From Clostridiales bacterium (GTDB lineage Bacteria; Bacillota; Clostridia; Saccharofermentanales; Saccharofermentanaceae), in contig JAFSPU010000011.1 in the NCBI GenBank assembly GCA_017451265.1, positions 1 to 40,125 of the forward strand: a stretch of DNA of 40,125 nt, given 5' to 3'. Below are positions 6,662-36,805 of this stretch, one piece after another (positions within the stretch are counted from its first letter, which is position 1; each line of letters opens with the position of its first letter). A model generated the notes under the pieces. That model was not told the DNA's origin. It did no database searches and saw nothing but the letters and a program-made list of their open reading frames with translations. The translations under genes and the position numbers were made by a program.

Positions 6662-6670
6662 GCCTTTGAC

Positions 6671-6745
6671 TGGAGGTGCCACCCGGATTTGAACCGGGGC
6701 ATAAAGGTTTTGCAGACCTTGGCCTTACCGCTTGGCTATGGCACC
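6671..6745 (-). tRNA. tRNA-Cys (anticodon GCA)
   Basis: The 75-nt minus-strand gene has acceptor GGTGCCA paired with TGGCACC. The anticodon stem AAGGT/ACCTT surrounds loop CTGCAAA (anticodon GCA). The T-arm is CCCGG-TTCAAAT-CCGGG, and T plus an encoded CCA form the 3' end. Confidence 0.95.
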
Positions 6746-6769
6746 GCATTCCTCAAATCGTGCTTGCTT

Positions 6770-6799
6770 ATTATGCAAAAGCAAACGCCCTTTTGTCAA
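6770..6799 (-). promoter_or_regulatory. Sigma-70 type promoter for tRNA-Cys
   Basis: On the minus strand TTGACA (6799-6794) and CATAAT (6775-6770) are separated by 18 bases. They lie about 25-54 bases upstream of the tRNA-Cys 5' end. Confidence 0.75.
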
Positions 6800-6829
6800 G
6801 TGCTCTGTTAATATTATATGCGCGCATGT

Positions 6830-6835
6830 TACAAT
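6830..6835 (+). promoter_or_regulatory. -10 box positioned for a leaderless mRNA (ABC permease)
   Basis: TACAAT ends exactly 6 bases before the ATG at 6842. No Shine-Dalgarno sequence precedes that ATG. Transcription starting about 7 bases after the -10 box would begin at the start codon itself. The -35 is weak (TTAATA at 6808-6813, spacer 16). Confidence 0.5.
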
Positions 6836-6841
6836 ATTCAT

Positions 6842-20867: not shown

Positions 20868-20881
20868 TATCTTAAGCCTCC

Positions 20882-21556
20882 TTACTTCTCGATCTCTCTT
20901 GTGTTGTAGAGTTCCTTGATCTCATCGATAGGCTTTGTCATCATATCCTTCATTGCCTCATCGAACTTGCCTTCATTGATCTCTGCGACTCTGTTGTTAA
21001 GGTGCTCTGCCTCAGGTGTCAGATACTTACCGTTAAGTCTTCTGGCAAGCATACCTACCATAGGATGTGAGATACCTGCAGGGCATCTTACTGAGCAGCA
21101 TCCGCAGCTTACGCAGTCGAAAGACTCCTCTGCACAAGCCTTGAAGTCACCTCTCTGAGCATAAGCGATGTACTGCATAACGTTGAGGCTCTGTGTGCAG
21201 GCCTTAGTACAAGCGTTACATCCGATACATGCATAGATCTCAGGATAGAGAGACATCATAACTTCCTGGTTAGCCTTGAGGTCCTCGATGTTGTAAGTTC
21301 TCTTATCTGTAGGGAAGTAAGGGATACGTGCGATATACATACCTTCCTGAACCTGTGTCTGGCAAGCAAGACATGTATGAAGCTCATTCTTACCCTTAAT
21401 TCTGTAGATAGTTGTGCATGCGCCGCAGAAACCGTGGCGGCAGCCAACGCCTCTTACGAGTGTATAGCCGGCATACTCAAGAGCCGTCATGATCGTGAGA
21501 TCTGCAGGCACCTGGTATTTCTTACCGTAAAAATAAACATTTACCATCTGTTCCAT
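20882..21556 (-). CDS. frdB: Fumarate reductase-type iron-sulfur subunit
   Basis: Electron-transfer subunit, 224 residues. The N-terminal ferredoxin-like domain carries C39-x4-C44-x2-C47 and C62 for a [2Fe-2S] cluster (CRHGFCGAC ... CLAC). The C-terminal helical domain has C110-x2-C113-x2-C116-x3-C120 and C148-x2-C151-x2-C154-x3-C158. This suggests two further clusters, both with [4Fe-4S] spacing, unlike the mixed 3Fe/4Fe set of classical FrdB. It lacks the CCG (HdrB-like) domain found at the C-terminus of archaeal TfrB, but a separate HdrB is encoded in this operon. It is expected to link the flavoprotein to the Hdr/Flx proteins. Confidence 0.85.
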   Translation of the reverse strand: MEQMVNVYFYGKKYQVPADLTIMTALEYAGYTLVRGVGCRHGFCGACTTIYRIKGKNELHTCLACQTQVQEGMYIARIPYFPTDKRTYNIEDLKANQEVMMSLYPEIYACIGCNACTKACTQSLNVMQYIAYAQRGDFKACAEESFDCVSCGCCSVRCPAGISHPMVGMLARRLNGKYLTPEAEHLNNRVAEINEGKFDEAMKDMMTKPIDEIKELYNTREIEK

Positions 21557-21574
21557 AATCTTGTTCCTTTCACA

Positions 21575-22423
21575 TCAGTATTCATCGGGCATTTCTTCTA
21601 TCTGGTCAAAACGGAAAACCGGGCCGTCCTTGCAGACGTATTTGGATCCGATATTACATCTTCCGCATTTACCGACTCCGCACTTCATACGAAGCTCAAG
21701 AGTTGTATAAACCTGATCATCAGTAAAGCCCAACTCCTTCATTCCCTGAAGAACGAACTTGATCATGATCGGCGGTCCGCAGATAAGACCGATCTTATCT
21801 GTTGAGAAATCGATTTCCTTCAGGTAAGCAGGAACGAATCCTACGTGGCCGTCCCAGCCTTCCTGCTCTCTGTCGATAGTAAGGTATACGTTGACACCTT
21901 CGGTATTCATCCACTTCTCCTTGATCTCCTTAAGCTTAACGAGATCGTCAGCGGATCTTGATCCGTAGAGAATATCGATTGTTCCGTAATCCTGTCTGTT
22001 ATCGATACAGTAATTGATTACTGATCTTAAAGGTGCAAGTCCGATACCGCCGGCGATGAACAGAAGGTTCTTGCCCTTGAGTTCTGTATCAACCGGGAAG
22101 TTGTTTCCGTAAGGTCCTCTTACGGTGATCTCGTCACCTACAGACAGACCGTGGAGGTACTCTGTAAGCAGACCGCATCTTTTGATGGAGAACTCCATGT
22201 ACTCCTTATTCGTAGGTGAAGAAGTAATGGAGAACATTCCCTCTCCTACACCGGGTACACAGACCATAGCGCACTGGCCGGGCATGTGCTCGAACAGCTT
22301 TCCTCCTCCGGGCGCATTAACTCTGAAAGTCTTTACGTCAGGAGTCTCCTGAGTGATGTCGGTGATAATACCGACGTGCGGGACCAGGATGTCTTGATTC
22401 TTATTGTTACCACAATCACACAT
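21575..22423 (-). CDS. flxA: FlxA-like FAD/NAD(P)-binding oxidoreductase subunit
   Basis: NADH-oxidising entry module of a Flx-Hdr type complex, 282 residues. The ferredoxin-NADP-reductase fold is shown by the FAD-binding segment MFSITSSP and the nucleotide site GGIGLAPLRS. The CGPP segment (ICGPPIMIK) binds the nicotinamide side. The C-terminus has C-x4-C-x2-C-x8-C (CGVGKCGRC ... C), a [2Fe-2S] site as in PyrK, sulfite reductase AsrB and hydrogenase gamma subunits. It also has an unusual CDCG near the start. It lies 15 bases after the flxB-like gene. AsrB is a possible alternative name, but the hdrA and mvhD/flxD neighbours favour Flx. Confidence 0.85.
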   Translation of the reverse strand: MCDCGNNKNQDILVPHVGIITDITQETPDVKTFRVNAPGGGKLFEHMPGQCAMVCVPGVGEGMFSITSSPTNKEYMEFSIKRCGLLTEYLHGLSVGDEITVRGPYGNNFPVDTELKGKNLLFIAGGIGLAPLRSVINYCIDNRQDYGTIDILYGSRSADDLVKLKEIKEKWMNTEGVNVYLTIDREQEGWDGHVGFVPAYLKEIDFSTDKIGLICGPPIMIKFVLQGMKELGFTDDQVYTTLELRMKCGVGKCGRCNIGSKYVCKDGPVFRFDQIEEMPDEY

Positions 22424-22438
22424 GTACTGTTCCCCTCC

Positions 22439-23533
22439 TTACTTATTTTCTGCGAAGGCCTTGATAACCTTCACGATATTGAGCGACTGAGGACACTTCT
22501 CAACGCAGCGGCCGCAGCCTACGCACATGAACATACCGTCATTGTTTGTAGGATAGTAAACAAGCTTGTGCATGAATCTCTGACGGAAACGCTGGAGCTG
22601 TGTCTGTCTGTTCTGTCCGCCTGCCATGAGTGTGAAGTCGGAATACATGCAGGAATCCCAGCATCTGTATCTCTGGATGCCGTCCTTGGTGGTGTAATCC
22701 TTGATGTCATAGCACTGGCATGTGGGGCATACGAAAGTACATGTACCGCAGCCGAGGCAGCCCTTGTAGACCTTATCCCAGACTTCAGACTTGAACTTCT
22801 CGTCAGTCTTGCCTGCACCCCAACCCTCGAGTGAGAGGTCAGCGTTGGGAAGCTGCTTTGCGATACCCTCGATGTAAGCCTTCTCTTCCTCGACCTTAGC
22901 GTCAGCATCAGCCTCCTCGAAAAGGTTAGCTACCTTAGCTGTGAGAGCCTCACCCTTCTCGGTAAGAGCCTTCCAGTAAAGCTTGCCGTCGATCATCCAT
23001 GTGGCAACGTCTGCCTTAGCCTTGGAAGGATCAGCAGGATCAACGCCGAATACTGTACAGAAGCAGGACTCCTCGGGCTCGTGGCAGGCAAGTGCTACTA
23101 CGATGCCGTGCTCTCTTCTGGACTTGTAGTAAGAGTCAACCGGATCAGTAAGGAATACGTTGTCCATAACTTCGATGGCACGAACGTCGCAGGGACGCAT
23201 ACCGAAGATTACGAAGTCCTGATCAACGAGCTTACCGGGTGTTACGTTAAGCTTTGTTCTGATAGGTGTATTTGCTGCCTTCTCGGCATCATCACCTGCA
23301 GCAACATCGGCAGGAACGATCTCTCTGTTAACAGTATAAAGCTGCTCAACCTGAGGGAAGAATGCATCCTTACCGGATCTGATCGTCTTTAATGTGTCGA
23401 TGTCACCCTCTGCGCCTTCCTTCCAGAACCCGTAGTTGGTCTGTCCTGCAGTCTTGATGGGCATGAACAGATCATAGGATCCGGCGATGGCGGCATACAG
23501 AGAATTGAGGTTTTCTTTTGCAATAGAATACAT
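22439..23533 (-). CDS. flxB: FlxB-like iron-sulfur subunit (AsrA/hydrogenase-beta-like)
   Basis: Predicted electron-transfer subunit, 364 residues. The N-terminal two thirds is the domain shared with anaerobic sulfite reductase subunit A, including GMRPCDVRAIEVMD and the CHEPEESCFC segment. Two C-terminal [4Fe-4S] motifs follow: CLGCGTCTFVCP (with further cysteines in TCQC) and CVGCGRCVEKCP. Its ATG overlaps the stop of the flxC-like gene by one base. Together with FlxA and FlxC it should pass electrons from NADH to FlxD and HdrA. Confidence 0.82.
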   Translation of the reverse strand: MYSIAKENLNSLYAAIAGSYDLFMPIKTAGQTNYGFWKEGAEGDIDTLKTIRSGKDAFFPQVEQLYTVNREIVPADVAAGDDAEKAANTPIRTKLNVTPGKLVDQDFVIFGMRPCDVRAIEVMDNVFLTDPVDSYYKSRREHGIVVALACHEPEESCFCTVFGVDPADPSKAKADVATWMIDGKLYWKALTEKGEALTAKVANLFEEADADAKVEEEKAYIEGIAKQLPNADLSLEGWGAGKTDEKFKSEVWDKVYKGCLGCGTCTFVCPTCQCYDIKDYTTKDGIQRYRCWDSCMYSDFTLMAGGQNRQTQLQRFRQRFMHKLVYYPTNNDGMFMCVGCGRCVEKCPQSLNIVKVIKAFAENK

Positions 23534-24510
23534 TACTTGTCACCCCTTCCTACAGCATCCTTCGGTTCCAGATCGTCGAAGGTGAAATCGGTAAGAGGGC
23601 TCTGAGCCTCAGGATCTTTTCCTGCCTGGAACTCTCCGTAGAATGTATCAATATCCTTGATGAACTTTCTGTTGAACAGGTGGAGAGGAATACCCTCGGG
23701 ACATACTCTGCTGCACTCGCCGCAGTCTGTACATCTGCCTGCTACATGGAAAGCTCTGATGATATGGAACATCTTCTCCTCGAAGGAGTCGACGTTAGCC
23801 TTCTGCTGTGAATCGAACTTGGTGTTATCGAATACGCACTTTCTGCAGGAGCATGCGGGACATACGTTACGGCATGCATTGCAGCGGATGCACTTGGAAA
23901 GCTCAGACTTGAAGAAAGCGAATCTCTCTTCAGGAGTCATCTTCTCGATCTTGATAACTTCCTCGAATCTGTCAGCATCGCCTGTATCCTTGGACTCGCC
24001 GATGACCTCATCGAAGATCACGTGATCCTTGCCCTTGCATACATGGCAGCGGTCGAGCATGAGATCTGTGTAAGCCATCTTCTTCTCGCCGTAGATAGTA
24101 TCGAATGTAACGTCTCCGTCACCCTCGATATCAATGCCTGAGATGGACTTGATACCCTTGATACCGGCCTTACGAGCCTTCTCGATATCGAGCTTGCCGC
24201 GGCAGCCTACACCGATAATGTAAGTGTTCTCACGGTTAACTCTGTGCTCTCTGATAAGCTGGTTGAAGCTGTAAGTATCACAGGGCTTGAGGCATACTGC
24301 TGTCTTACCCTCGAGCTTACCTGCCTCGATCATCATCTTGGACAGGTTGGCGCCGCAGAATCCGTCATATACGAAGTTGTCAAAATCTTCGGGCTTCTCG
24401 AAGTAAGCGGGTTCCGGATTATAGGGCATGTCACCCTTCTTCCAGCCGATCGCTCTTACGACTGTGCCGTCAGCGATCAGTTCCTTTAATCTATTGATCA
24501 ATTCTTGCAT
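23533..24510 (-). CDS. flxC: FlxC-like iron-sulfur subunit
   Basis: Predicted electron-transfer subunit, 325 residues. The N-terminal domain contains VCLKPCDTYSFNQLI, a PCD motif also seen in the FlxB-like protein, so the two subunits are distantly related. Clusters follow at CIRCNACRNVCPACSC and CTDCGECSRVCPEG, each fitting [4Fe-4S], with extra cysteines (RKC) after the first. It overlaps the flxD gene by 13 bases and touches flxB. The assignment rests on domain content and gene order. Confidence 0.8.
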   Translation of the reverse strand: MQELINRLKELIADGTVVRAIGWKKGDMPYNPEPAYFEKPEDFDNFVYDGFCGANLSKMMIEAGKLEGKTAVCLKPCDTYSFNQLIREHRVNRENTYIIGVGCRGKLDIEKARKAGIKGIKSISGIDIEGDGDVTFDTIYGEKKMAYTDLMLDRCHVCKGKDHVIFDEVIGESKDTGDADRFEEVIKIEKMTPEERFAFFKSELSKCIRCNACRNVCPACSCRKCVFDNTKFDSQQKANVDSFEEKMFHIIRAFHVAGRCTDCGECSRVCPEGIPLHLFNRKFIKDIDTFYGEFQAGKDPEAQSPLTDFTFDDLEPKDAVGRGDK

Positions 24511-24944
24511 CGTAGATCCCCCAATCTGACATTCTCGCCCAAGGACTTGATCTTCTCGCAGAACTCATTCATTGTCTTGGAGAACTTCGCACCTTCAGCG
24601 GCGGAACACCACTCTACTCTTGTTCTACCGTTCTCTACGCCGATGTACTCGAGCATGGAGAAAAGAAGAGCCATTCTTCTTCTTGCATAGTAGTTACCTG
24701 TGGAATAGTGGCAGTCACCCGGATGGCATCCGCAGATGATAACGCCGTCAGCGCCTCTCTCGAATGCTCTTAAGATAAACATCGGGTTAACACGTCCCGA
24801 ACAGGGGACTCTGATGATCTTAACGTCGGCAGGATACGACAGTCTTGAAGATCCTGCGAGGTCAGCACCTGCATAGGAACACCAGTTGCAGCAAAAAGCT
24901 ACGATCAACGGACGGAATTCCTTGTTCTCTTCGTTCATCGGCAT
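24498..24944 (-). CDS. flxD: FlxD/MvhD-like [2Fe-2S] electron-transfer subunit
   Basis: 148-residue adaptor that connects an electron-input module to HdrA. The MvhD-family pattern is clear: FCCNWCSYAGAD near the start, RVPCSGRVNP, then CGCHPGDCHYSTGN. The start at 24944 is chosen because GGAGGT lies 9 bases upstream. The second Met (24938) forms an ATGA overlap with the hdrA stop and is the alternative. The frame continues upstream, but only inside hdrA. Its position directly after hdrA is the standard context for this family. Confidence 0.9.
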   Translation of the reverse strand: MPMNEENKEFRPLIVAFCCNWCSYAGADLAGSSRLSYPADVKIIRVPCSGRVNPMFILRAFERGADGVIICGCHPGDCHYSTGNYYARRRMALLFSMLEYIGVENGRTRVEWCSAAEGAKFSKTMNEFCEKIKSLGENVRLGDLRCKN

Positions 24945-26935
24945 ATAGCATCCACCTCCGTTGTAATCTGTCTGTTGGAGAAGCCCTGGAGATCCATCGC
25001 ACCGGAAGGACAAGCGGATGTACAAGCACCGCAGCCCTGGCACAGAGCGAGGTTAACCTGAGCAACTCTTCTGGTCTCTCTCAAGCCGTGATCCATGACC
25101 TGAACGTCATCATAAGTGATGGCACCGTAAGGACATACATTGGCACATGTGGAACATCCGTTACACAGGAGTGTGTCACACTGAGCTGTGCAGGGGTTGG
25201 TCTTGAGGTGATCCTTGGCAAGGAGGCCGATAACCTTAACGGCTGCAGCACCTGCCTGGGAAACTGTCTCAGGGATATCCTTAGGTCCCTGAGCCATACC
25301 TGACAGGAAGATACCTGCCGTAGGAGACTCTACAGGACGAAGCTTAGCGTGAGCTTCTGTAAGGAAGTTGTTGTTATCGATACTTGCTGTGAGCATTGTA
25401 GCGATCTTTCTTACACCGGGGTTAGGCTCGATGGCAGCAGCGAGAACGACCATGTCGGCCTTCATATTGATCTGCTTACCGTCAAGAAGATCAGCAGCCT
25501 GAACGAGGAGCGATCCGTCGGGCTGAGGCTTAACCTTGCCGACCTGACCCTTGATGTAATTTACGTGATACTGCTCTACAGCTCTTCTGTAGAACTCATC
25601 GAAGTTCTTACCGGGTGTTCTTACATCAATATAGAATACAGTGATGTTAGTATCCGGCCAGTGGTCCTTGATGAGCATGGCGTGCTTAGCTGTGTACATG
25701 CAGCATACCTTGGAGCAGTAAGGCTTACCCTTCTCATCACTATCGCATCTTGATCCGACACACTGGATGAAAACGATGTCCTTAGGCTGCTTGTGGTTGC
25801 TCATTCTCTCGAGGTGACCGCCCGTAGGACCTGCTGCGTTCATGAGACGCTCGAGCTCGATGGATGTGATTACATCAGGAGACTCGTTGTAAGCGTACTC
25901 ACCGAACTTATCAAGATTAATAATGTCGAAGCCTGTAGCAACTACGATGGCACCGTACTTAACTGTTACGATCTCGTCCTGCTGCTCATAATCAACTGCC
26001 TTGGAAGGGCAGATCTTAGCGCAGACACCGCACTTACCTGTCTTGAAGTATGTGCAGTTCTCACGGTCGATAACAGGTACAGCAGGTACAGCCTGAGCGA
26101 AAGGCATGTAGATAGCAGGTCTGTTACGAAGACCTCTGTCGAACTCGCTCGGGATGTTACCGATCTTGCCAAGAGGACACTTTGTGGAGCACTCTCCGCA
26201 GCCTGTACACTTATCGAAATCGATAGATCTTGCTTTCTTTCTGATATCAACGTCGAAGTTACCTACATAACCGCTTACCTTCTCTACTTCACTGTATGTG
26301 TAGAGAGTGATGTTAGGATGCTGGTTAACTTCAACCATCTTAGGTGTGAGGATACAGGAAGCACAGTCCAGAGTAGGGAATGTCTTATCGAACTGGGACA
26401 TTCTTCCGCCGATGGAAGGCTCCTTCTCAACGATATCAACTTCGTAACCTGCATCAGCGATATCCAGAGCTGTCTGGATACCTGCGATACCGCCTCCGAT
26501 AACGAGTGCTCTCTTTGTAACAGGGCTCTCGCCTTCCTTCAGAGGAGTATTCAGGTTAACCTTGGCGATAGCTGCTCTTGCAAGGATGACGGCCTTCTTC
26601 GTAGCCTCTTCCTTATCCTTGTGGATCCATGAGCACTGCTCACGGATGTTGGCAACCTCTACCATGTAAGGATTAAGTCCTGCCTTCTCGGCACATGCTC
26701 TGAATGTCTTCTCGTGCATACGAGGTGAGCATGAGCAGATAACAAGACCTGTAAGTCCGTATTCCTTGATGGCCTCTATGATCTTCTCCTGACCGGCCTC
26801 GGAACACATATACATGTAGTCGTCAGCGTATACAACGCCGGGCTCGTAACGAACGAGTTCGACTACCTTCTTAACATCTACCGTCGCAGCGATATTGGTA
26901 CCGCAGTGACAGACAAATACACCGATTTTCTGCAT
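24935..26935 (-). CDS. hdrA: Heterodisulfide reductase subunit A (HdrA), flavin- and iron-sulfur-containing
   Basis: Core flavoprotein of Hdr complexes, where FAD performs electron bifurcation in characterised members. The 666-residue product starts with the N-terminal cysteine domain (CHCG 9-12, C44, CSCSPRMHEKTFRAC 68-81). The FAD site is VIGGGIAG (145-152), with GGRMSQFDKTFPTLDCASCI containing the HdrA-specific cysteines C191 and C194. An inserted pair of clusters lies at C243-C246-C249-C253 and C294, C302-C305-C309. The C-terminus has two more [4Fe-4S] motifs, CNGCSTCANVCP and CQGCGACTSACP. All expected cofactor sites are present. It lies 3 bases after hdrC and is coupled to flxD. Confidence 0.95.
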   Translation of the reverse strand: MQKIGVFVCHCGTNIAATVDVKKVVELVRYEPGVVYADDYMYMCSEAGQEKIIEAIKEYGLTGLVICSCSPRMHEKTFRACAEKAGLNPYMVEVANIREQCSWIHKDKEEATKKAVILARAAIAKVNLNTPLKEGESPVTKRALVIGGGIAGIQTALDIADAGYEVDIVEKEPSIGGRMSQFDKTFPTLDCASCILTPKMVEVNQHPNITLYTYSEVEKVSGYVGNFDVDIRKKARSIDFDKCTGCGECSTKCPLGKIGNIPSEFDRGLRNRPAIYMPFAQAVPAVPVIDRENCTYFKTGKCGVCAKICPSKAVDYEQQDEIVTVKYGAIVVATGFDIINLDKFGEYAYNESPDVITSIELERLMNAAGPTGGHLERMSNHKQPKDIVFIQCVGSRCDSDEKGKPYCSKVCCMYTAKHAMLIKDHWPDTNITVFYIDVRTPGKNFDEFYRRAVEQYHVNYIKGQVGKVKPQPDGSLLVQAADLLDGKQINMKADMVVLAAAIEPNPGVRKIATMLTASIDNNNFLTEAHAKLRPVESPTAGIFLSGMAQGPKDIPETVSQAGAAAVKVIGLLAKDHLKTNPCTAQCDTLLCNGCSTCANVCPYGAITYDDVQVMDHGLRETRRVAQVNLALCQGCGACTSACPSGAMDLQGFSNRQITTEVDAICR

Positions 26936-26938
26936 ATA

Positions 26939-27334
26939 TTACCTCCTGTACCTGCGGAATGCGCTTACGAGAAGCTGCTGAGGGAGATCTTCTGCAAGAA
27001 GTCCCGGAACCTCTTCGGGCTGGAGGTAATCTCCGCCTCTCTGTCTTGCCACGATCTGACGGGTAGCATCAACGAGCTTACCGGGCTGGACGTCTCTGGG
27101 ACATCTCTCGATACATGCGAAGCATCCGAGACACTTCCATGCAGCCTTGGACTCAACGAGCTCATCGAGGTCGCCTCTGATGATGTATGAAGCGAACTGG
27201 TGAGGCTTAATATCCATCTCACTGTAAGCAGGGCATGAAGCAGTACACTTGCCGCATCTCATGCACTTATAGGGATCGCTGCCGCTGATCTCCTTGATGA
27301 GTTCAATCTTCTTCTCTAATTCAGTCATGCTCAT
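26939..27334 (-). CDS. hdrC: Heterodisulfide reductase subunit C (HdrC)
   Basis: 131-residue ferredoxin-like subunit that passes electrons from HdrA to HdrB. Two [4Fe-4S] motifs are present: CMRCGKCTASCPAYSEM and CLGCFACIERCPRDVQP. The latter is typical of HdrC. The ATG overlaps the hdrB stop (ATGA), with AAGGAGG 4 bases upstream. A second Met six bases on has better ribosome-site spacing and may be the true start. Confidence 0.93.
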   Translation of the reverse strand: MSMTELEKKIELIKEISGSDPYKCMRCGKCTASCPAYSEMDIKPHQFASYIIRGDLDELVESKAAWKCLGCFACIERCPRDVQPGKLVDATRQIVARQRGGDYLQPEEVPGLLAEDLPQQLLVSAFRRYRR

Positions 27335-28122
27335 GCGCCCTCCTTTACACCGAGTGCTTCAGCAAGGAGCTCTGTGAAATAGTAAACAGGAACCTTGGAA
27401 GAAGCGTCGGACTTATTGAGGTTATACATGCAAAGAGGACATGCAGTGATGAGACAGTCAGCACCGAAGCCTGTGCTGTCATCAAAGATCTGTGCTGTTC
27501 TCTGCTTTGTAAAATCAGGGTCCTTAAGAGCTGTGTATCCGCCGCAGCACTCGTTTCTCATGGAGTAGATAACAGGTTCTGCGCCGAGAGCTCTGATGAA
27601 GTCTTCCATGATCTTCGGATTCTCCGGATCATCGAAGTCAAGGATCTTTCCGGGACGGAGAGTAAGGCAGCCGTAGTAAGCGCCGATCTTCTTACCCTCG
27701 AGAGGATTAACGACCTTCTTGGCAAGCTCATCAAATCCGATAACGTCTCTTAAGACCTCAAGGAAATGAAGGACCTTAGTCTCACCTGCATAAGCTTCTT
27801 CGAAGCCGCAGTAATTGTTAGCACGGGTCCTGATGTCTTCAACGTTCTTCATGTCGTCGTTGACGCGCTTAAGCACATGGTGGCATGCCGAGCAAAGAGT
27901 AATAAGATCCTGGCCCTGCTCCTTGGCATAGTTCAGAGCTCTTACAGATGAAAGCTTGGTAGCTATCTCATCCGTACCGAGGGGATAAACTCCGCCGCAG
28001 CACTGCCATTCGGGGATCTCAACAAGCTCGAAGCCCAATGCAAGCGCACTTGATCTGGCATACTTGTCCAGATCCTGCGCCTTGTTCTTCAAGGTGCATC
28101 CGGGGTAATAACTGTATTTCAT
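27331..28122 (-). CDS. hdrB: Heterodisulfide reductase subunit B (HdrB)
   Basis: 263-residue subunit with two CCG domains, the site of disulfide reduction in archaeal HdrB. YYPGCTLK opens the protein and PEWQCCGGVYP with CSACHHV completes the first domain. YYGCLTLRPG, RNECCGGY and CPLCMYNL make up the second. Both CCG cysteine sets are complete, so the non-cubane clusters could form. I prefer the ATG at 28122 because HdrB proteins usually start MKY-x-YYPGC. An ATG at 28137 is in frame but has AGAGG directly abutting it. It is first in the nine-gene operon. Confidence 0.92.
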   Translation of the reverse strand: MKYSYYPGCTLKNKAQDLDKYARSSALALGFELVEIPEWQCCGGVYPLGTDEIATKLSSVRALNYAKEQGQDLITLCSACHHVLKRVNDDMKNVEDIRTRANNYCGFEEAYAGETKVLHFLEVLRDVIGFDELAKKVVNPLEGKKIGAYYGCLTLRPGKILDFDDPENPKIMEDFIRALGAEPVIYSMRNECCGGYTALKDPDFTKQRTAQIFDDSTGFGADCLITACPLCMYNLNKSDASSKVPVYYFTELLAEALGVKEGA

Positions 28123-28157
28123 AATACTTCCCGCCATCCTCTTTCTTAATTATTGGA

Positions 28158-28325: not shown

Positions 28326-30644
28326 TCATCTGTAAGAGCCGTATTTTGCCTTCTTCTCAGCCTTCTCTTTATACAGCTTCTCATCAGCCATATCGATGAT
28401 CTCATGGATGTCGATATCACTGCCGCAAGTGAACTCACAGATACCCGTACTCATGTCGATGGGATAAGGCTTATTCGCCGCTTCGTTATGCCTCTTGGTG
28501 ATGCTGATGATACGGTCCTTGATATTCTTCTCGTAATCGCTTACCTGCACCATGGCGAAGACAATAAACTCATCGCCTCCGAGACGTCCGATTATGTCAC
28601 CCTCACGGAAGGATTCCTTAAGGATAGAAGCAATCTCACGCAGCGAGAAGTCACCGTCATCGTGACCGAACTTGTCGTTAACGTACTTGAGGTTATCCAT
28701 ATCGGCAAAGCAGATAAGAGCTCTCTTTCCCCTGTTATCCGGCTTGGCGATCTCGGCCTGTGCGAATTCCAGGAAGCCTCTCCTGTTATAAAGGCCCGTG
28801 AGCTCATCGGACTTCGCGATGACATCAAGTCTGGAGTTATCCTCCATGAACTGGTTAAGTGAAGCCTCGAGCTTCTCCTTGGCCCTGTTCTGATCCTCGA
28901 TCATAAGCAGTGACTTCAGGGTAACCGCAATCTGGTACGAAACCGGAGACATGTTGTTCATGTTGCTGTTGTCCATCTCGGATACCAGCATGCCGTACAT
29001 ATCATCACCTACGAACAGCGGGAATACGACTACAGTCTGTCTTCTGTCTTCGGGAATGAACTCATTCTCAAACATGTTCTCGGTTCTCAACAGCTGCTGC
29101 TCCTCAGGAAGCATCCTGATACCTTGCTCGTCGTTGATAGCCTTAAGAAGCACAGACGGAGGACATCTCCATTCGACATCCGCAGACGTCTTGGTATTGC
29201 CCTGGAACAGATACATATATGTACGTCTGAAACCGACTGTTGTTAATCCGTCCAGAAGATGATCGTATGGGATATCTGAGGTGTTGCTCATTAGGAATAC
29301 ATCACCGGTCTGCTTATTGATAAGTCTGGATATTCTTTCTGTCTTGGACAGATTCTCTCTGGTAAGTGAAAGTCCCGCAAACGAGAGATGACGGTAGTAA
29401 TCCGCGAACATCTCATTAAGGAGAACCTGGTTCTTCTGATCCTTGATAACGATCGTTCCTTCATACAGAAGCGACTGAAGAAGATTAAACACCTTCTCAG
29501 GAGTCGTATATGCAAGAAGGTTAGTCTCCAGGATAGTCTCGAAGGCATAATTAACAGTCTCCAGGATCTCCTTGTCACAGCCTGACATAATGAACTTCGC
29601 ATATTCTTCAAGGAAGGCTCCGAGCGTCTCCTTGATCCTTATGACTGAATCGTCGTCATCAAACATACCGAACAGGTACTTGATGCTCTCATCTACAAAT
29701 CTTCTGCTTCCACTTTCAAGGCCGTCAAGTCTTAATCTTTCACGCTGCAGTTCCACATCAAGACCGTTACATCCGCAGGAGGATCTCTGAACAAGATAAG
29801 TACGGATACTCATCCTCTCGATCTTCTTACCTTCGATAAATCTTCTGGCATTGAGAATGGACTTGTATGTAAGGTCTGCAGAACTTGCATCTACAGTAGT
29901 AAGAGGCGGGTTCATGGACACTGCAAAAATGTCATCATCAAAGCCTGTAACAAGGATATCCTTGCCGGGCATCTTACCCATCTCCTTAAGCTTCTTGTAG
30001 CCTCCCAAAGCCATTACGTCATTGGCAAATGAGATGGCCTGAAGACCGGGATTGGATGTGACGAGCTGCTCGACCTGCTCCGCAACGTCCTCTGTAAAAT
30101 CTCCGTATACGACCTTCTTGTCATCGTATGCAATTCCTTCGGACTCGAGTGTCTCCCTGTAGATCTCGAGACGCTCAAGAGCATCCTTGTTAGTCAGAGG
30201 ACCGCTCACAAAACCGATGTCCTTGCAGTTATGCTTGACGATAAGGTGACGGATAGCCTGACCTAAACCGGTGCGGTTATCGTACATAACGGATGCGTAT
30301 CCCGGATACTCGGTAAACAGAAGAACCGTGGGCACCTTGGGAAGCATCTTAAGGAAGTCTTCCTGCTGCTGCTGATCGGCGCGCGAGCAGATGATACCGA
30401 AAAGAACATAGAGAATATCAATATGCTTCTCATTGATCAGCTTGAAGACTGAATTGTACTGATACTCATACTGCTTATCCTGATATCTGGTATCGGACTT
30501 GCCAATATAATGGCCGGGGAAAATGTACAGATTGGCATCGATCGCCTTGGCTGCGAACTCCGCACCCTTACAAGCCTGAGCTGAAAAATTATTATCAAGA
30601 TCATCTATCAGAAGGCCGATATTAAGGCGCATGTTCTCACTCAT
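28326..30644 (-). CDS. Diguanylate cyclase with LacI/PBP1-type sugar-binding domain
   Basis: Predicted cytoplasmic c-di-GMP synthase of 772 residues with no signal peptide. Residues 6 to about 290 form a LacI-type periplasmic-binding fold (IGFVSGPL, ANDVMALGGYKKLKEMG, ILVTGFDDDIF), which should bind a sugar. It ends in the motif SSCGCNG (288-294). A middle region (about 300-590) includes a GAF-like part. The GGDEF domain starts at LTGLYNRRGF (615). The active site GGDEF is at 689-693, and an inhibitory RxxD site (R680-E-G-D683) is in the correct position, so product feedback is likely. AGGAG precedes the ATG. It lies 29 bases after the GH5 cellulase gene. Confidence 0.92.
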   Translation of the reverse strand: MSENMRLNIGLLIDDLDNNFSAQACKGAEFAAKAIDANLYIFPGHYIGKSDTRYQDKQYEYQYNSVFKLINEKHIDILYVLFGIICSRADQQQQEDFLKMLPKVPTVLLFTEYPGYASVMYDNRTGLGQAIRHLIVKHNCKDIGFVSGPLTNKDALERLEIYRETLESEGIAYDDKKVVYGDFTEDVAEQVEQLVTSNPGLQAISFANDVMALGGYKKLKEMGKMPGKDILVTGFDDDIFAVSMNPPLTTVDASSADLTYKSILNARRFIEGKKIERMSIRTYLVQRSSCGCNGLDVELQRERLRLDGLESGSRRFVDESIKYLFGMFDDDDSVIRIKETLGAFLEEYAKFIMSGCDKEILETVNYAFETILETNLLAYTTPEKVFNLLQSLLYEGTIVIKDQKNQVLLNEMFADYYRHLSFAGLSLTRENLSKTERISRLINKQTGDVFLMSNTSDIPYDHLLDGLTTVGFRRTYMYLFQGNTKTSADVEWRCPPSVLLKAINDEQGIRMLPEEQQLLRTENMFENEFIPEDRRQTVVVFPLFVGDDMYGMLVSEMDNSNMNNMSPVSYQIAVTLKSLLMIEDQNRAKEKLEASLNQFMEDNSRLDVIAKSDELTGLYNRRGFLEFAQAEIAKPDNRGKRALICFADMDNLKYVNDKFGHDDGDFSLREIASILKESFREGDIIGRLGGDEFIVFAMVQVSDYEKNIKDRIISITKRHNEAANKPYPIDMSTGICEFTCGSDIDIHEIIDMADEKLYKEKAEKKAKYGSYR

Positions 30645-30673: not shown

Positions 30674-32074
30674 TTATTTCTTCGCATGTTTTCTGCCAAG
30701 CAGGAACAGCCCTGTATAAGCCGCTGCAACAACGACTGCTCCTACAATTAATAATAATGGATAGTTGACCTTATTTTCGTGAAATTCTTGTGAATTGTCT
30801 GTCTCTACAGAAGTCTGAGCGGTCTCGGTAACGGCAGAGGTTTCGGCTGTCGCTGCCTCCGAAGCCGAAGTCTGGACGGGTTCTGTAGTCTGCACAGGTT
30901 CCGTCTCTTCCGTATTTTGCGAGGGCTGCGCGTCACTTCCCGCGGGAGCATTATCGATAAGGGCAGAAGTGATGCCTTCGTTCCATGTGAGAGCGTTGCG
31001 GTCCAGGATGCCATAGCCGCCGTAATCAGAGATACCGTTATCCCACCAGATACACCTGATTCCGCGTGAAGCTGCCTGCTGCACATAGTAAGCTGCATAC
31101 TCAGCCCTGTCGGCATCATTATTCTGACTCTCAACTCCGAACTCGCCTATGATAACGGGCACCCCGAGTGAAGACGAGAAAGATGCAACCGAGTTCATCA
31201 TGCCGTCGATGGCATCCTTACAGTTCTGATCAAAGCTGGTGTAAGAAGCATCACCTTCATGAGAGCAGAACTGCCACGGCGTATACGCATGAACCTCACA
31301 GATAAGATGGTTCGAAACTGTATCTGTCGGAAGCACAAAGCTGTTAAGCACATTCTGATCTGTGGACGCGACATATGTGTTTACGATGAGGTTTCTTGTG
31401 GAGTTATTGCCGCCTGTGGCACGGACGGTATCAACGAACACCTGAGCGAAGGAATTGACCGCATCATAGGCGCCATTACCCGTTGTCGGAGCATTCCAGG
31501 AATTGTTCATGTCGAGCATCTCATTATAGCCCTCGAACATAAGACGGTTGTCGTAGTCCTTGAACTCATTGGCGATATTGGTCCAAAGGTTAGCAAAGCG
31601 CTGCTGTACCGAATCAAAAGTGCCAGTGTCGGCAATTAGCCAGCAGACCTTGTCTGAACCGTGTTCACCGGTATCATGATGTACATTCAAGATTACATAA
31701 AGGCCCTCATCCAAAGCCCAGTCTACTACCTCATGCACGCGTGACATCCAGGCCGCATCGACATTGCCTTGCGAGTCAGTAAACTGAGCCCAGGTTACCG
31801 GTATCCTGATGGTGTTGAAGCCGCGCTCACGCACAGCGGCGATCATGGCCCTGGTGGTAACGGGATTACCCCAGCATGTTTCCACAGCGGAGGGCGTGAC
31901 ATTATTTATCCATGTTCCGTAAGCATCAAGCGTATTACCGAGATTCCAGCCCACATTCATTGCGGAGACCTGCTCGGAAGCGGTCATGGGCGTATCTGCC
32001 CTGACGGGCGACACTTCAGGAACAGCTGCAAGCATAAACAATGCCGCAACAACAGCCGACAAAACTTTCTTCAT
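30674..32074 (-). CDS. GH5 endoglucanase (cellulase) with C-terminal membrane anchor
   Basis: Surface beta-1,4-glucanase, 466 residues. A signal peptide (1 to about 26, cleavage near VRA-DT) precedes a single GH5 domain: MNVGWNLGNTLDA, RIPVTW, LNVHHD, acid/base E185 in FEGYNE, and nucleophile E311 in IIGEFG. A Thr/Glu/Ser linker (about 380-430) leads to a hydrophobic helix (about 438-460) and the positive tail GRKHAKK. The enzyme is therefore anchored in the membrane by its C-terminus rather than by dockerin or sortase. The start follows the cls stop by 7 bases with GAGGT upstream. It sits between two sugar-binding GGDEF genes. Confidence 0.93.
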   Translation of the reverse strand: MKKVLSAVVAALFMLAAVPEVSPVRADTPMTASEQVSAMNVGWNLGNTLDAYGTWINNVTPSAVETCWGNPVTTRAMIAAVRERGFNTIRIPVTWAQFTDSQGNVDAAWMSRVHEVVDWALDEGLYVILNVHHDTGEHGSDKVCWLIADTGTFDSVQQRFANLWTNIANEFKDYDNRLMFEGYNEMLDMNNSWNAPTTGNGAYDAVNSFAQVFVDTVRATGGNNSTRNLIVNTYVASTDQNVLNSFVLPTDTVSNHLICEVHAYTPWQFCSHEGDASYTSFDQNCKDAIDGMMNSVASFSSSLGVPVIIGEFGVESQNNDADRAEYAAYYVQQAASRGIRCIWWDNGISDYGGYGILDRNALTWNEGITSALIDNAPAGSDAQPSQNTEETEPVQTTEPVQTSASEAATAETSAVTETAQTSVETDNSQEFHENKVNYPLLLIVGAVVVAAAYTGLFLLGRKHAKK

Positions 32075-32081: not shown

Positions 32082-33671
32082 TCACATCAACGGAGCTACA
32101 AACTTAAGAAGCTTAGCCATAAGCTTGTATCCGAGTTTCTCATTCTTTATCGTCTCAGGAGTAACCTTTCTGCACTTGGGAACCGTCTCCTGAAAGTCCT
32201 TTTCGATGTCCGCAATGACATCGCACTTGTACATGTAAGCCGCACACTCAAAGTGGTGGTACAAGCTTCTGTAGTCAAGGTTAATGGAACCCACCATGCC
32301 CTTGATGCCGTCCGAGACCATTGCCTTGGAGTGGATGAAGCCGGGAGTGTACTCGTATATGCTGACGCCCGCCTTAATGAGCTCACTGTAGTGCGATTTC
32401 GCGATGGCGTATGCAGCCGCTTTATCAGGGATACCGGGCAGTATCAAAGAGACATCAACGCCTCGCAAAGCTGCGAGCTTGAGCGCGTTTTTCATGGTGT
32501 CGTCAATGATGAGGTAAGGCGTCATGATGTGAACATATTCTTCTGCGTGTCCAAGGGTATCGAGGAAGGCCGCCTCGCCCGCCTGATATGAATCCAGAGG
32601 AGAATCGGAGAAAGGCATGATGAAGCCGGTCGAATCCCCGACATCAACTGACTTGAAGTTATCCACCTGCTCGAAGGACGGCTCAGGAATATAAAGATTC
32701 CAAAGCTCGAGGAACATCTGTGTGAAGCTTCTGACCGCGTCCCCCTCAAGTCTTAATGCATTGTCTTTCCAGTGACCGAATCTGGGCTTCAGATTGATAT
32801 ACTCGTCAGCCATGTTTACGCCGCCCGTGTAAGCCACCTTACCGTCTATAACTAAGATCTTACGGTGATCTCTGTAGTTGTAGTAAGTGGACAGGAACGG
32901 ATAGATACGTGAGAACTCCTTGCACTTTACCCCGAGGTTGTTCATTCTGGCCGTATAGTCAGGAGGAAGCAGCGAGATCTCGCACATGCCGTCGTACATA
33001 ACGCGCACGTCGACGCCCTCGGAAGCCTTATCGGCAAGAATGTCCAGAACCCTTCCCCACATGTAGCCTTCAGCTATTATGAAGTACTCCACAAAGATGT
33101 AATCCTTGGCCTGCTCAAGGTCCTCGAGAAGCTTTTCAAAGAAGTCGGAACCGCTTGAAAAATATGAGGCGGAAGTATTCATAAACACAGGGAAATTACC
33201 CGTATTGGACATGTAGTGGCAAAGTCCTGCCATGTCAGCTTTTTCTGCTGCAAGAGCATCGGTAACAGCCTTATCCTGAGGGATCCTTCCCTCGGTCTTC
33301 TGCTTAACGTCAAGCAGGTTGCGCTTCAGCTTACGGCTGCCGAAATCCAACTTGGTGAAGCCCAGGAAAAGAGCTCCCGGCACAGGGAAAAGACCGATGA
33401 GCATCATCCATGTAAGCTTGCTTGTGGAATCCATGCCGGAGTTATAAAGATAGATGACCATCATCACTGAGAATACGAGCATTACAGTGTTGATGTTGGC
33501 TACATATTCATCGAACAGAATGTAGAGCGTGACAAGCACCACGATCTGAACGATGATCATGAGCAGGATGAACATGAACCTTGAAAAAATGACTCGCAGT
33601 ATCCCCCTGGGACGCGGCTTAATAAGTCTCAATACCCTCCCCTCACGGGAAGAACCTCCGGTGCCGCTCAT
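32082..33671 (-). CDS. cls: Cardiolipin synthase (phospholipase D family)
   Basis: Joins two phosphatidylglycerol molecules into cardiolipin and glycerol at the membrane. The 529-residue product has two or three N-terminal hydrophobic segments (about 25-105). The two HKD catalytic motifs are H269-x-K271-x4-D276 and H447-x-K449-x4-D454. They are followed by GGVNMADEY and GSINLDYRS, as in Cls. Length is normal. The ATG overlaps the stop of the GH16-like/GGDEF gene (ATGA). Why it lies in a c-di-GMP/cellulase operon is not clear; membrane remodelling linked to surface enzymes is a guess. Confidence 0.93.
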   Translation of the reverse strand: MSGTGGSSREGRVLRLIKPRPRGILRVIFSRFMFILLMIIVQIVVLVTLYILFDEYVANINTVMLVFSVMMVIYLYNSGMDSTSKLTWMMLIGLFPVPGALFLGFTKLDFGSRKLKRNLLDVKQKTEGRIPQDKAVTDALAAEKADMAGLCHYMSNTGNFPVFMNTSASYFSSGSDFFEKLLEDLEQAKDYIFVEYFIIAEGYMWGRVLDILADKASEGVDVRVMYDGMCEISLLPPDYTARMNNLGVKCKEFSRIYPFLSTYYNYRDHRKILVIDGKVAYTGGVNMADEYINLKPRFGHWKDNALRLEGDAVRSFTQMFLELWNLYIPEPSFEQVDNFKSVDVGDSTGFIMPFSDSPLDSYQAGEAAFLDTLGHAEEYVHIMTPYLIIDDTMKNALKLAALRGVDVSLILPGIPDKAAAYAIAKSHYSELIKAGVSIYEYTPGFIHSKAMVSDGIKGMVGSINLDYRSLYHHFECAAYMYKCDVIADIEKDFQETVPKCRKVTPETIKNEKLGYKLMAKLLKFVAPLM

Positions 33672-36600
33672 CGTATCTCGTTACTTCCTTTACGGGCCTG
33701 CTTATCAGCATACATACGCATGTCGGCAAGCTTGATCAAGGCCTCGAGATCGATCTCATCTGTGATGATGCACTCAGCAATACCCATGCTGGCATTAACA
33801 CTGTAATCGAGTCCCTGAACGAACGGATCCTTCATGGAATGCTGGTGGATCCTCTCACGGATAGCCTCATAGTCGTCAGCGATATTAACGTCTCCCACCA
33901 TAGCCATGGCGAACTCGTCACCGCCGTATCTGGCACAGATACCGTTCTCACCCGCATATGCCTGCAGAGACCTCGACAGGATGATAAGAGCATTATCACC
34001 CTCCAGATGTCCGTAATGGTCATTGATATACTTGAGACCGTCCATATCGATAGTGAACAGTGAGAAGATACGACCCTTATTCATCGGATCCTTAAGCATC
34101 CTGTCGATGCCTTCGAAGAAGCCGCGTCTGTTGTAAAGGTCGGTAAGATAATCACGCTCGCTTAAGCGGCTGATGGCGCTGTTGGCCTCCAGGATCTTGG
34201 CCTTATCGATAAGCGAGCTTACCATCGCAGATACATAGATACCGAACTCCTCGAATCTCTGATGTCTTCTTATCTGAAGATCAGAAAATGCGCAGCTCAT
34301 ATATCCGTATTCTTCAGTCATGGTCCTGATCTGTCTGAACAGGATGGCATTTACGCCGCTGTCTTTGACAAGAAGCTTATCCCACTCAGGCAGAGGGTAT
34401 CTTAAGTTATAGAATTTCTCCTTGGCTGCGAACACCTGCTTACTTCCGTGGAAGATGGAATGTACGCATCCGTCACGGTAGCCCTTGGTGATGCCAATGA
34501 AATAATAGTCGTCCTTCCAAAGCCACAGGAAGCGGTTAAGGTAATCAAATGTCTCATCGATATTGCTCATGCTAAGTGTACGGGTAACGAGCTTACCCAT
34601 CTCGAGAGTGTGTCGGAAGTAGTCCTGATTGCTTGCTGAAAGTGCGTTGACCGTCTCCTGTAAAAGAGGCACCTCCGCCTTTATGCAGCCGCAGGAGTCA
34701 GCTCTTCTCTCGGTATATTCGATAACGGTCTTGATGGTCCTTCCGTTAAGCCACGGAACCTTGCCCTCGATGATGTCTATTACGTAGTGGCTCAGGCTCT
34801 CATAGGCCGGCACTGCAGTAGTGATCGAAGGCGAATGAAGGACGCCGTTAAGGATACCGTCAAAGCCGGTTACGATACAGTCCTCAGGAATGCTGTATCC
34901 GTGTGCCTTAAGAGCATCACATACGCCGAGCGCCATGGAGTCATTGGCACAGATATAAGCCTCCGGAAGTTCCATTCCCTTATCAAGCTGCTCATTAACC
35001 ACACGCGCAGCAGTAGCATCCCAGAAGTCACCGTAAAGGATATCTTCCTTGGTCACCTTAAGCTTGTGTGCAGCCATAAGTCTCTTATAGATATTCTCAC
35101 GCTCGATGGAGTACGGATTATCAGGATATCCGCCGATGAACTTTACCTTCTTGCAGCCGTGATCATCGAGTATATGATTAACGATCTTCTCGAAACCTGA
35201 AGCATAATTAAGAACTGCGTTGATTACGCCTTCATACTGCCGCTCCAGGAATACGACAGGGATGCACTTTCTCTTACACAGTTCCCTGAGTTCATCCAGG
35301 ATCTCAGAAGTCTTGATCATCTCAGCGAATACGACCATCGCAGACATATTAAATCTGCTTATGAATTCGACAAATTCCTTACCGATCTCAGGCTCCGCCG
35401 AACTCTTGTCATCAAGACCGAAAGTAAAGCCTGTGATCACATAGTCACGGTTAATCTCAGGTACAAGAAGTGACTGAATGAACAGGTTAAAGTTCTCCGC
35501 ATCATCCCATGAACCTACAACAGCGATAGTCTTGCGCTTATTCTCGCAGACAGGAACCTTCTCGAATCTGATATTACGGATCGAAACGGAAGCGTCATTG
35601 GTGCAGTTGCCGAGGTTAAATTCAAGTCGGCCGTTATCGTCATCGGCATCCGTCATCTCGAAAGGAAGATAATGAGTCTGCCAGTCGGTATCAAGCTCGA
35701 TCACGGTATCTTCAAGGTATCTGCACCAGTGAACATTAGGAGCCGTCACGGCAACCTTCATGTGCCTCTTCTCCGTGGCCATGGCCTCGAAGGAAACCTG
35801 ATACTTATCACCCTTAAAAAGCGGGAGACCGCCCTGGTCAAGCTGAACGGAATACTCGGCATCACCGGAATTCAGGATCTCGATCTTAAACGAGTCCCCC
35901 TCCCTCTCACATACAGCCTCACCGGCACATGCCAGTTCGAACTTCCAGTCCTTCGGACCGTTACCGAGGTAATTGCCCGTGGAATCCGGGTCCTTAAAAT
36001 GCTTCTCGTAATCGGGAACGGAAACGTTCTCATCGTAGGATTCTTTCCTGTAGACCCTGATGTAATCAATGAGGCACTCTGCCTCAGGGCCGAAGGATGT
36101 AAGTCTGGTGGGATTAGCTGTACCGTTACCGCCGATGGAAACATCAGCTTCTATGTGGAAGGGCTTATTGTACGGAGCAGGATAAGGATTCATCAGACCT
36201 TCGTCGTTGGTGGAATACCAGTAGGACTCAGAGTAATACTCCTCCCCGTCAAGGAAGAAGGTAAACTTTCCGGGAACCCACTCGACTCCGTAAACATGGA
36301 AATCAGCCGACAGATCAGTCCTGCCGTCACCGTATGTTCCGTTACGAGTCTCTGAAGGATTTCCGAAGTGAACGATACCGTAACCGTTCTCAACATACTG
36401 GCCGTCGGCAACGAGCATATCTACCGAACCGGATCTGGGCCACTTACCGTATGCATTATCTGTGGGCAGAAGTCTTAACGCGGTCATAAAGCCCTTGCCG
36501 CTCGAGACCTTTACCCTGGCTTCCACATAACCATATGTGAAATCCACCTTGCCCTTGGTATTTATCCTTCCGGACTTATATGAAACTGCTTTATCCGGGG

Positions 36601-36805
36601 AAATGATCCTCTCTGGCTTGATTACAAGGTTTCCGTCATTTACAAAAACGTGTTGGCCGTCATCAACGATGATCTGTAATTCATCGTTATCCCAATGATC
36701 GGGATGCTCTTCGACGTTCCAGGAATCGCGGTTAAGATCACCGGCGTCGAATTCATCCTGCCAAAACAGCTTATAACCTTGTTTTTCCAGCTCAGAAGAA
36801 TCCAT
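33668..36805 (-). CDS. Four-domain sensor: inactive GH16-like domain, CBM4/9-like module, LacI-type binding domain, GGDEF
   Basis: Predicted cytoplasmic diguanylate cyclase of 1045 residues with no signal peptide. Residues 8-255 are a GH16 beta-glucanase fold (KLFWQDEFD, GRINTKGKVDFTYGYVEARV, DFHVYGVEW, CLIDYIRVYR). The catalytic GEIDIME motif reads G126-S-V-D-M-L-V132, so nucleophile and acid/base glutamates are Ser and Val and only the middle Asp remains. Residues 275-418 resemble CBM4/9. Residues 425-705 are a LacI-type sugar-binding domain ending in SCGC, as in the GGDEF protein at 28326-30644. A linker domain precedes GGDEF (880-1040, GGDEF 961-965). No RxxD inhibitory site is present. 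The ATG lacks a ribosome site but has TAAAAT 6 bases upstream. It is first in a four-gene operon. Confidence 0.9.
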   Translation of the reverse strand: MDSSELEKQGYKLFWQDEFDAGDLNRDSWNVEEHPDHWDNDELQIIVDDGQHVFVNDGNLVIKPERIISPDKAVSYKSGRINTKGKVDFTYGYVEARVKVSSGKGFMTALRLLPTDNAYGKWPRSGSVDMLVADGQYVENGYGIVHFGNPSETRNGTYGDGRTDLSADFHVYGVEWVPGKFTFFLDGEEYYSESYWYSTNDEGLMNPYPAPYNKPFHIEADVSIGGNGTANPTRLTSFGPEAECLIDYIRVYRKESYDENVSVPDYEKHFKDPDSTGNYLGNGPKDWKFELACAGEAVCEREGDSFKIEILNSGDAEYSVQLDQGGLPLFKGDKYQVSFEAMATEKRHMKVAVTAPNVHWCRYLEDTVIELDTDWQTHYLPFEMTDADDDNGRLEFNLGNCTNDASVSIRNIRFEKVPVCENKRKTIAVVGSWDDAENFNLFIQSLLVPEINRDYVITGFTFGLDDKSSAEPEIGKEFVEFISRFNMSAMVVFAEMIKTSEILDELRELCKRKCIPVVFLERQYEGVINAVLNYASGFEKIVNHILDDHGCKKVKFIGGYPDNPYSIERENIYKRLMAAHKLKVTKEDILYGDFWDATAARVVNEQLDKGMELPEAYICANDSMALGVCDALKAHGYSIPEDCIVTGFDGILNGVLHSPSITTAVPAYESLSHYVIDIIEGKVPWLNGRTIKTVIEYTERRADSCGCIKAEVPLLQETVNALSASNQDYFRHTLEMGKLVTRTLSMSNIDETFDYLNRFLWLWKDDYYFIGITKGYRDGCVHSIFHGSKQVFAAKEKFYNLRYPLPEWDKLLVKDSGVNAILFRQIRTMTEEYGYMSCAFSDLQIRRHQRFEEFGIYVSAMVSSLIDKAKILEANSAISRLSERDYLTDLYNRRGFFEGIDRMLKDPMNKGRIFSLFTIDMDGLKYINDHYGHLEGDNALIILSRSLQAYAGENGICARYGGDEFAMAMVGDVNIADDYEAIRERIHQHSMKDPFVQGLDYSVNASMGIAECIITDEIDLEALIKLADMRMYADKQARKGSNEIR

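Follow-up and report, generated by a model that had tools for sequence, protein, structure and literature searches.

Domain architecture of the sensor gene and its neighbors

The window, i.e., the whole stretch of 40,125 nucleotides analyzed here (Clostridiales bacterium, GenBank assembly GCA_017451265.1, contig JAFSPU010000011.1), carries on its minus strand a gene with an ATG start for a protein of 1045 residues (33668–36805), which we term the sensor. From the N- to the C-terminus, the sensor consists of a pseudo-GH16 domain (residues 1–262; 36020–36805), a CBM4/9 domain (residues 266–420; 35546–36010), a LacI-type periplasmic-binding-like domain (residues 421–700; 34706–35545), a linker (residues 701–870; 34196–34705), and a GGDEF domain (residues 871–1045; 33671–34195) with the GGDEF motif at 961–965, all encoded on the minus strand. 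The linker matches no Pfam family and is conserved along with the rest of the protein. All four Pfam hits exceed their curated cut-offs: Glyco_hydro_16 (PF00722, 5.3e-11, residues 49–192), CBM_4_9 (PF02018, 3.6e-9, best stretch 282–400, 37.5 bits versus a cut-off of 25.9), Peripla_BP_3 (PF13377, 6.2e-20, residues 548–683), and GGDEF (PF00990, 1.6e-31, residues 884–1039). Thus, the combination of GH16, CBM4/9, LacI-type, and GGDEF domains in a single protein, which a preliminary description had read from the DNA, holds, and the profile search of residues 1–420 that it had called for returns GH16 and CBM4/9 rather than another fold. Among the Pfam hits up to an E-value of 1, no HTH family is present, nor does the protein give an anti-sigma hit; with a periplasmic-binding-like and a GGDEF domain in one chain and no HTH, it belongs to the LacI-type GGDEF proteins.

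In a search of PDB sequences, residues 5–253 are beta-1,3-glucanase-like (2vy0, 4.1e-32), and 26 distinct entries match this laminarinase-like part at 1e-10 or better. As the match extends across the complete jelly-roll domain, this part is GH16 by fold and family. Structure predictions from two-row alignments reach a mean pLDDT of 34 and 31.

Three genes follow the sensor gene on the same strand, spaced by −4, 7, and 29 bases. The first, cardiolipin synthase-like (32082–33671; NCBIfam TIGR04265, 1.6e-92, over cut-off), overlaps the sensor gene by four bases. The second encodes a GH5 protein of the Cellulase family (30674–32074; Pfam PF00150, 1.4e-65) whose N-terminus resembles a signal sequence and whose C-terminus holds a hydrophobic stretch. 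The third encodes a second LacI-type/GGDEF protein of 772 residues (28326–30644; PF13377, 2.8e-14; PF00990, 1.6e-32), in which no GH16 or CBM hit is found.

Absence of an export signal

Secretion is usual for GH16 enzymes, if not strictly defining, and the sensor shows no sign of it. Neither a signal peptide nor a membrane helix is detected, the highest mean hydropathy over 19 residues being 1.19. A signal peptide overlooked through a wrong start is ruled out by the reading frame, which spans 1048 codons from stop to stop and thereby leaves at most three codons upstream of the start. Moreover, the GH16 match starts at residue 1 in the sensor and at residues 1–20 in 48 of the 49 proteins of the same architecture described below, the exception (L069, residue 106) perhaps having its start called too early; in 11 enzymes of the same order, the match starts at residues 34–108. 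A plain hydropathy cut-off applied to the first 60 residues is positive in 0 of the 49 fused proteins and in merely 4 of the 11 enzymes, which makes it a weak test. The earlier description of a signal-less protein is thus borne out by frame length, GH16 start, and hydropathy.

A family found in one genus among the genomes searched

We searched 148 genomes (the window's own, 84 of the same genus, and 63 other relatives) with residues 1–420 and scored the domains of the matching proteins. GH16, LacI-type domain, linker, and GGDEF are joined in 49 proteins, one each in 49 of the 85 genus genomes, so that the architecture search proposed beforehand is positive, and a frameshift or assembly chimera is ruled out by the same architecture in 48 other genomes. 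Eight of these proteins form the window's own clade together with the sensor. Whereas 39 of the 49 proteins are 1032–1144 residues long, the remaining ten (868–887 residues) give no CBM hit. In the longer group, 37 proteins have a CBM hit, strong in 14 (110 bits or more) and weak in 23 (23–39 bits). The GH16-CBM order also occurs in lipoprotein-like enzymes of the same genus. One further protein, L082 of genome G083, is a CBM-LacI-GGDEF protein without GH16, and its operon still contains the GH5 gene and the second cyclase.

Outside the genus, the architecture is found in none of the 63 genomes of other relatives. Wider scans covered 391 genomes of the class and, at E ≤ 1e-12, 398 of the phylum, both sets including G000 and overlapping other scans. 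The class scan yielded 30 distinct non-genus frames of at least 800 residues with a GH16 match; GGDEF is present in none of the 18 fetched, of which L109 and L114 gave no domain match whatever, and the 12 left unopened are weak matches (1e-23 or worse). Among 16 such frames from the phylum scan, GGDEF is absent from the 13 fetched; G855, G671, and G736:C5, which match strongly, were left unopened. Of four CBM-only matches near E 1e-5 (L134, L135, L136, and L137), the two that were read, L136 and L134, are signal-bearing lipoprotein-like proteins, presumably GH9-like from their appearance by eye; L135 is listed as an ORF.

The gene neighborhood is conserved to different degrees. The four-gene order of the window is also found at loci L034, L035, L036, L038, L040, and L041. 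A cardiolipin synthase-like gene is present at 8 of the 9 clade loci, and the ninth (L039) has merely 271 bases of downstream sequence. Of the 49 loci, eight have less than 2.5 kb downstream, leaving 41 readable. At 33 of these, one of the next four genes downstream has the same orientation and encodes a protein related to the second LacI-GGDEF protein, as the immediate neighbor in 25 cases; the other eight show none in that range. Within four genes, relatives of the GH5 gene occur at ten loci and of the cardiolipin synthase gene at eight, the window included.

Loss of the catalytic pair

The sensor lacks the E-x-D-x-(x)-E pair of active GH16 enzymes. At the catalytic motif position (residues 127–132; 36410–36427, minus strand), S-V-D-M-L-V replaces E-I-D-I-M-E. 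The alignment of GEIDIME in 2vy0 with GSVDMLV is ungapped there; it places S127 at the nucleophile and V132 at the acid/base, with D129 retained. This confirms the reported loss of both catalytic glutamates and rules out glutamates at shifted positions. The accompanying statement that the strings typical of the fold persist applies to 42 of the 60 columns conserved among the enzymes.

Across the family, at least one catalytic glutamate is lost in 44 of 49 proteins and both are kept in five; the nucleophile is lost in 42 and the acid in 17. The letters at nucleophile, Asp, and acid read EDE (5), QDE (17), QNE (5), other combinations with Q (3), SD with A, S, T, or V (8), or are mixed (11), a glutamine standing at the nucleophile in 25 of the 49. 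In the window's clade, both glutamates are absent from 8 of 9 members and L040 retains the nucleophile only. In contrast, all 20 secreted-looking GH16 enzymes, judged as such by eye from their N-terminal letters, are EDE (11 of the same order and 9 of other orders of the class), and E-x-D-x-x-E is present in every one of the 19 GH16 ORFs scored from the phylum scan. None of the five EDE fused proteins has a CBM. Positions 40 and 111 are Phe and Ser in four of the five; the fifth, L073, carries the same letters as the enzymes at 40, 111, 122, 144, and 146.

Could a different chemistry have replaced the lost pair? D129 and D134 might together take over its role in slow hydrolysis or transglycosylation, the product then being seen by the LacI-type domain. 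Both aspartates are invariant in the clade (9/9), and position 134 is occupied in the 20 enzymes by Leu (15), Arg (4), or Val (1); the sister proteins with an intact motif, L073 with its enzyme-like cleft included, also speak for this reading. In addition, the E144S variant of the laminarinase SCLam, whose acid/base E149 is intact, showed signs of residual cleavage and transglycosylation in crystals, as inferred by its authors (PMC7961093). Yet D134 falls on neither catalytic column, both glutamates are gone from nearly the whole clade, and the five kinds of letters at position 132 (V, T, A, S, and N) look like released constraint. We therefore regard altered chemistry as improbable. The same SCLam crystals contained bound oligosaccharides (PMC7961093). 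The window's natural exchange of the nucleophile for serine equals this deliberate one, and we count the bound ligands in favor of a receptor.

Remodeling of the substrate cleft

The cleft was compared with SCLam at E144, E149, and the nine non-catalytic contacts N53, D146, T161, H163, H169, Y52, W129, W139, and W240, residue numbers being transferred by counting along the 2vy0 alignment. Four of the nine are retained, namely N40 (N53), W122 (W139), D129 (D146), and H146 (H163), and all four are invariant across the window's clade. The sensor differs at the other five, which counts against a glycan receptor. At positions 39, 149, and 227, however, the secreted relatives are mostly unlike SCLam as well (0, 0, and 1 of 20 match), so that only two substitutions, W111R and T144I, are real changes relative to them: R111 (36473–36475, minus strand) takes the place of W129 at the −1 subsite and I144 that of T161, while the enzymes keep Trp and Thr in 20 of 20 each. 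Residue 111 is Arg in all nine clade members and Arg or Lys in every one of the 25 proteins with a Gln nucleophile (38 of 49 overall), amounting to 33 Arg and one Lys in the 34 proteins of clade and Gln group.

Within the clade, the non-catalytic contact columns are enriched for invariance (6/9 versus 78/250 overall, one-sided Fisher p = 0.028, a single test on nine columns). The 25 Gln-nucleophile proteins show no such enrichment (3/9 versus 113/250 at 90% identity, p = 0.86), a further point against the receptor reading.

This last result and the remodeled cleft would also be expected of a structural or docking module that holds the dimer or a partner, e.g., the second LacI-GGDEF protein, while sensing is left to the LacI-type domain. 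The second cyclase is indeed a conserved neighbor (33 of 41 readable loci), and Rv0315, discussed below, combines a GH16 fold with a lack of glycan binding. Against a docking module stand the CBM4/9 domain fused alongside, the four invariant contacts, and the GH5 gene in the operon. L082 weighs on both sides: an operon that persists without the GH16 domain disfavors a receptor, yet such a loss is not what one would expect of an indispensable dimer scaffold either. On balance, we consider the docking module rather unlikely.

For the receptor reading, Arg at the −1 subsite means that the ligand may have changed from a beta-glucan oligosaccharide. More speculatively, the exchange of Trp for Arg suggests that the putative receptor might now read a charged sugar, e.g., a phosphorylated oligosaccharide, in place of the former substrate.

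Descent and selection

In a tree of 69 GH16 domains, the 49 fused domains lie on one side of a branch with support 97/85, or 96/84 when the motif columns are removed. The root was not inferred, and L076, L075, and L079 are long branches; the tree would fit a single fusion, with catalysis lost afterwards. We infer the direction from enzyme to dead domain because the enzymes are EDE. Presence and absence of the glutamate pair require at least three changes on this tree. In a quick tree built from the remaining domains, L082 is sister to the window's clade and the ten CBM-less proteins group together (94), but the long branches of L073 and L075 come together in it.

Repeated loss of catalytic residues, together with the missing domain in L082, raises the question whether the fused GH16 domain is a passenger that has been in decay ever since the fusion. 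Six pairs sampled within the window's clade argue otherwise. In the five where it is computable, dN/dS of the GH16 domain is 0.057–0.153, compared with 0.076–0.195 for the CBM and 0.066–0.098 for the LacI domain; for the sixth pair (sensor and L037), no value was obtained for GH16, and that of the CBM is 0.289. As dS is mostly above 1, these values are rough. In line with them, the share of invariant residues among the nine clade members is similar in GH16 (79/258), CBM (46/149), and LacI domain (94/277). The 49 unbroken frames say little here, since the list was built from single ORFs holding GH16 and GGDEF. By these rough measures, the GH16 domain appears to be under purifying selection in the sampled pairs and does not look like a decaying domain; we regard a mere relic as highly improbable.

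GGDEF output and c-di-GMP context

The GGDEF motif is intact in all 49 fused proteins, and D920, D922, N928, D929, and D937 are invariant in a 48-row alignment. The RxxD I-site, common in such domains and not defining for them, is found by motif scan in none of the 49. The window's genome (69.5% complete) contains 32 GGDEF and 13 EAL matches, and c-di-GMP turnover in it is likely. It also has three GH94-family matches. No PilZ match is found in nine genus genomes, the control being detected in 5 of 14; this apparent lack of a c-di-GMP receptor of the PilZ type speaks against the receptor reading. c-di-GMP-I and -II riboswitches likewise give no match in the nine genomes, but the controls matched nowhere either, so that their absence is not established.

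A proposed glycan receptor built on a former glucanase

We favor, at a probability of about 0.55, the reading that the sensor is a cytosolic diguanylate cyclase whose GH16-CBM4/9 module stems from a secreted glucanase lineage and acts as a non-catalytic glycan receptor. The remodeled GH16 cleft and/or the CBM would bind a glucan-derived oligosaccharide or a charged derivative of it, most likely an imported or partly degraded plant-glucan oligosaccharide. The LacI-type domain would bind another small ligand, which its family suggests is probably a sugar. Following the known GGDEF mechanism, binding might alter the dimer arrangement via the conserved linker, bringing two GGDEF domains together for c-di-GMP synthesis, and output from domains with no RxxD I-site would escape canonical product inhibition. 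The co-directional second LacI-GGDEF protein could act with the sensor, perhaps as its partner.

The proposal of the preliminary description that a hydrolase was turned into a receptor fits the widespread loss of glutamates and a domain kept under selection, a fit that extends neither to the identity of the ligand nor to the tuning of the cyclase. That the ligand is a beta-glucan oligosaccharide is a plausible hypothesis because of the GH16 origin, the CBM, and the GH5 and GH94 genes. GH94 enzymes are cytosolic phosphorylases, and the GH5 gene of the operon together with the three genomic GH94-family matches fits an intracellular supply of beta-gluco-oligosaccharides.

A bolder extension, which we put forward tentatively and regard as possible but doubtful, is that one genus preserves a graded series from enzyme to intracellular second-messenger receptor: secreted EDE enzymes, fused proteins with both glutamates (5/49, L073 among them with all cleft letters examined), proteins with a Gln nucleophile (25/49), and finally the window's clade with both lost (8/9). 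In this extension, the receptor of the clade and of the Gln group would now read a charged sugar.

If the receptor reading is true, a bacterial polysaccharidase has been reused as a cytosolic receptor linking plant-glucan supply to c-di-GMP, with intermediate states present in sister species. For many of the input domains found on diguanylate cyclases, no ligand is known; a hydrolase cleft whose relatives have solved structures lends itself unusually well to testing, since ligands to try, contact residues, and sister proteins that retain the catalytic pair are already available.

Comparison with known systems

RsgI anti-sigma factors of cellulolytic clostridia resemble the proposed sensor in that substrate sensing triggers a signal. 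They span the membrane, sense outside the cell, and act through a sigma factor, whereas the window protein has neither a membrane helix (as judged by its low hydropathy) nor an anti-sigma domain.

The glucanase-like domain of the insect beta-GRP/GNBP proteins is GH16-like. Here, a non-hydrolyzing glucanase-like domain is part of a glucan receptor, in which the N-terminal domain binds glucan and some glucanase-like domains bind soluble laminarin (PMC6272582). These are, however, animal immune receptors, and their glucanase-like domain is C-terminal and, according to the accessible text, does not bind insoluble glucan (PMC6272582). Rv0315 is a bacterial GH16 fold without hydrolysis. In contrast to the sensor, it keeps both glutamates and is secreted; it is reported not to bind oligosaccharides in solution, which counts against the receptor reading, and the accessible text mentions no signaling domain (PMC4606783).

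GH16 laminarinases and lichenases, with 2vy0, SCLam, and the genus's own lipoprotein-like GH16-CBM enzymes as examples, match over the whole domain, those of the genus sharing the GH16-CBM order; the window protein differs in lacking both glutamates and a signal peptide and in its fusion to a cyclase.

A glycoside hydrolase family domain joined to GGDEF is already in print in the GH126-GGDEF protein of Bacillus velezensis, which differs in its (alpha/alpha)6 barrel and degenerate motif SAERF, with no LacI or CBM domain mentioned in the accessible text (PMC7479077). A protein with claimed glycosidase activity (PMC5457731) is, as far as its accessible text goes, an ordinary HAMP-GGDEF protein and not comparable. 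The accessible main text of a review from 2022 on the sensory domains of c-di-GMP proteins mentions no glycoside hydrolase, and glycosyltransferase is its only word in "glycos-" (PMC8846402). It notes that Periplas_BP domains "may bind" solutes including sugars, a role not validated (PMC8846402). No GH16-GGDEF protein was found in the literature searched, a set of largely open-access papers. Within that literature, LacI-type GGDEF proteins carrying a putative pseudo-GH16 receptor are new. The closest relatives are the LacI-type or Peripla_BP GGDEF proteins, which share the periplasmic-binding-like domain joined to GGDEF and of which the neighboring protein at 28326–30644 is a plain example; to this common plan, the window's sensor adds GH16 and CBM4/9 in front.

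Relatives with and without the GH16 domain

L073, a locus from a relative of the same genus, encodes a GH16-LacI-GGDEF protein (8809-11469, minus strand). Its GH16 domain retains E-x-D-x-x-E and the tested cleft letters. The protein may be a cytosolic glucanase that is still active and is fused to a cyclase, and it represents the best enzyme control to set beside the window's protein. A second such locus, L082, encodes a CBM-LacI-GGDEF protein lacking GH16 (6366-8750, plus strand), followed by a GH5 gene and the second cyclase. This protein is a natural version of the sensor minus GH16.

Probable c-di-GMP turnover and the search for receptors in the genus

EAL matches occur in all nine genus genomes searched (G000, which is the window's own genome; G005, G017, G030, G074, G081, G058, G060, and G082; 7-16 per genome), and G000 has 32 GGDEF matches. 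PilZ is matched in 0 of these 9 genomes. A c-di-GMP riboswitch search of the same set returned zero matches, but its controls were likewise silent. Within the window, a further GGDEF protein is encoded at 17031-18701 (minus strand), with an additional 7TMR-DISM_7TM match below the cut-off.

Other genes in the window

HsdM-like and HsdR-like genes of a type I restriction system lie at 272-4137 (minus strand), where the DNA has a lower GC content (0.38-0.42). A gene run occupies 19248-28137 (minus strand), and its first genes lie downstream of the sensor operon in several relatives as well. Its domains include Fe-S, FAD and FlpD domains along with cysteine-rich CCG domains, and the run resembles an electron-transfer or heterodisulfide-reductase-type cluster.
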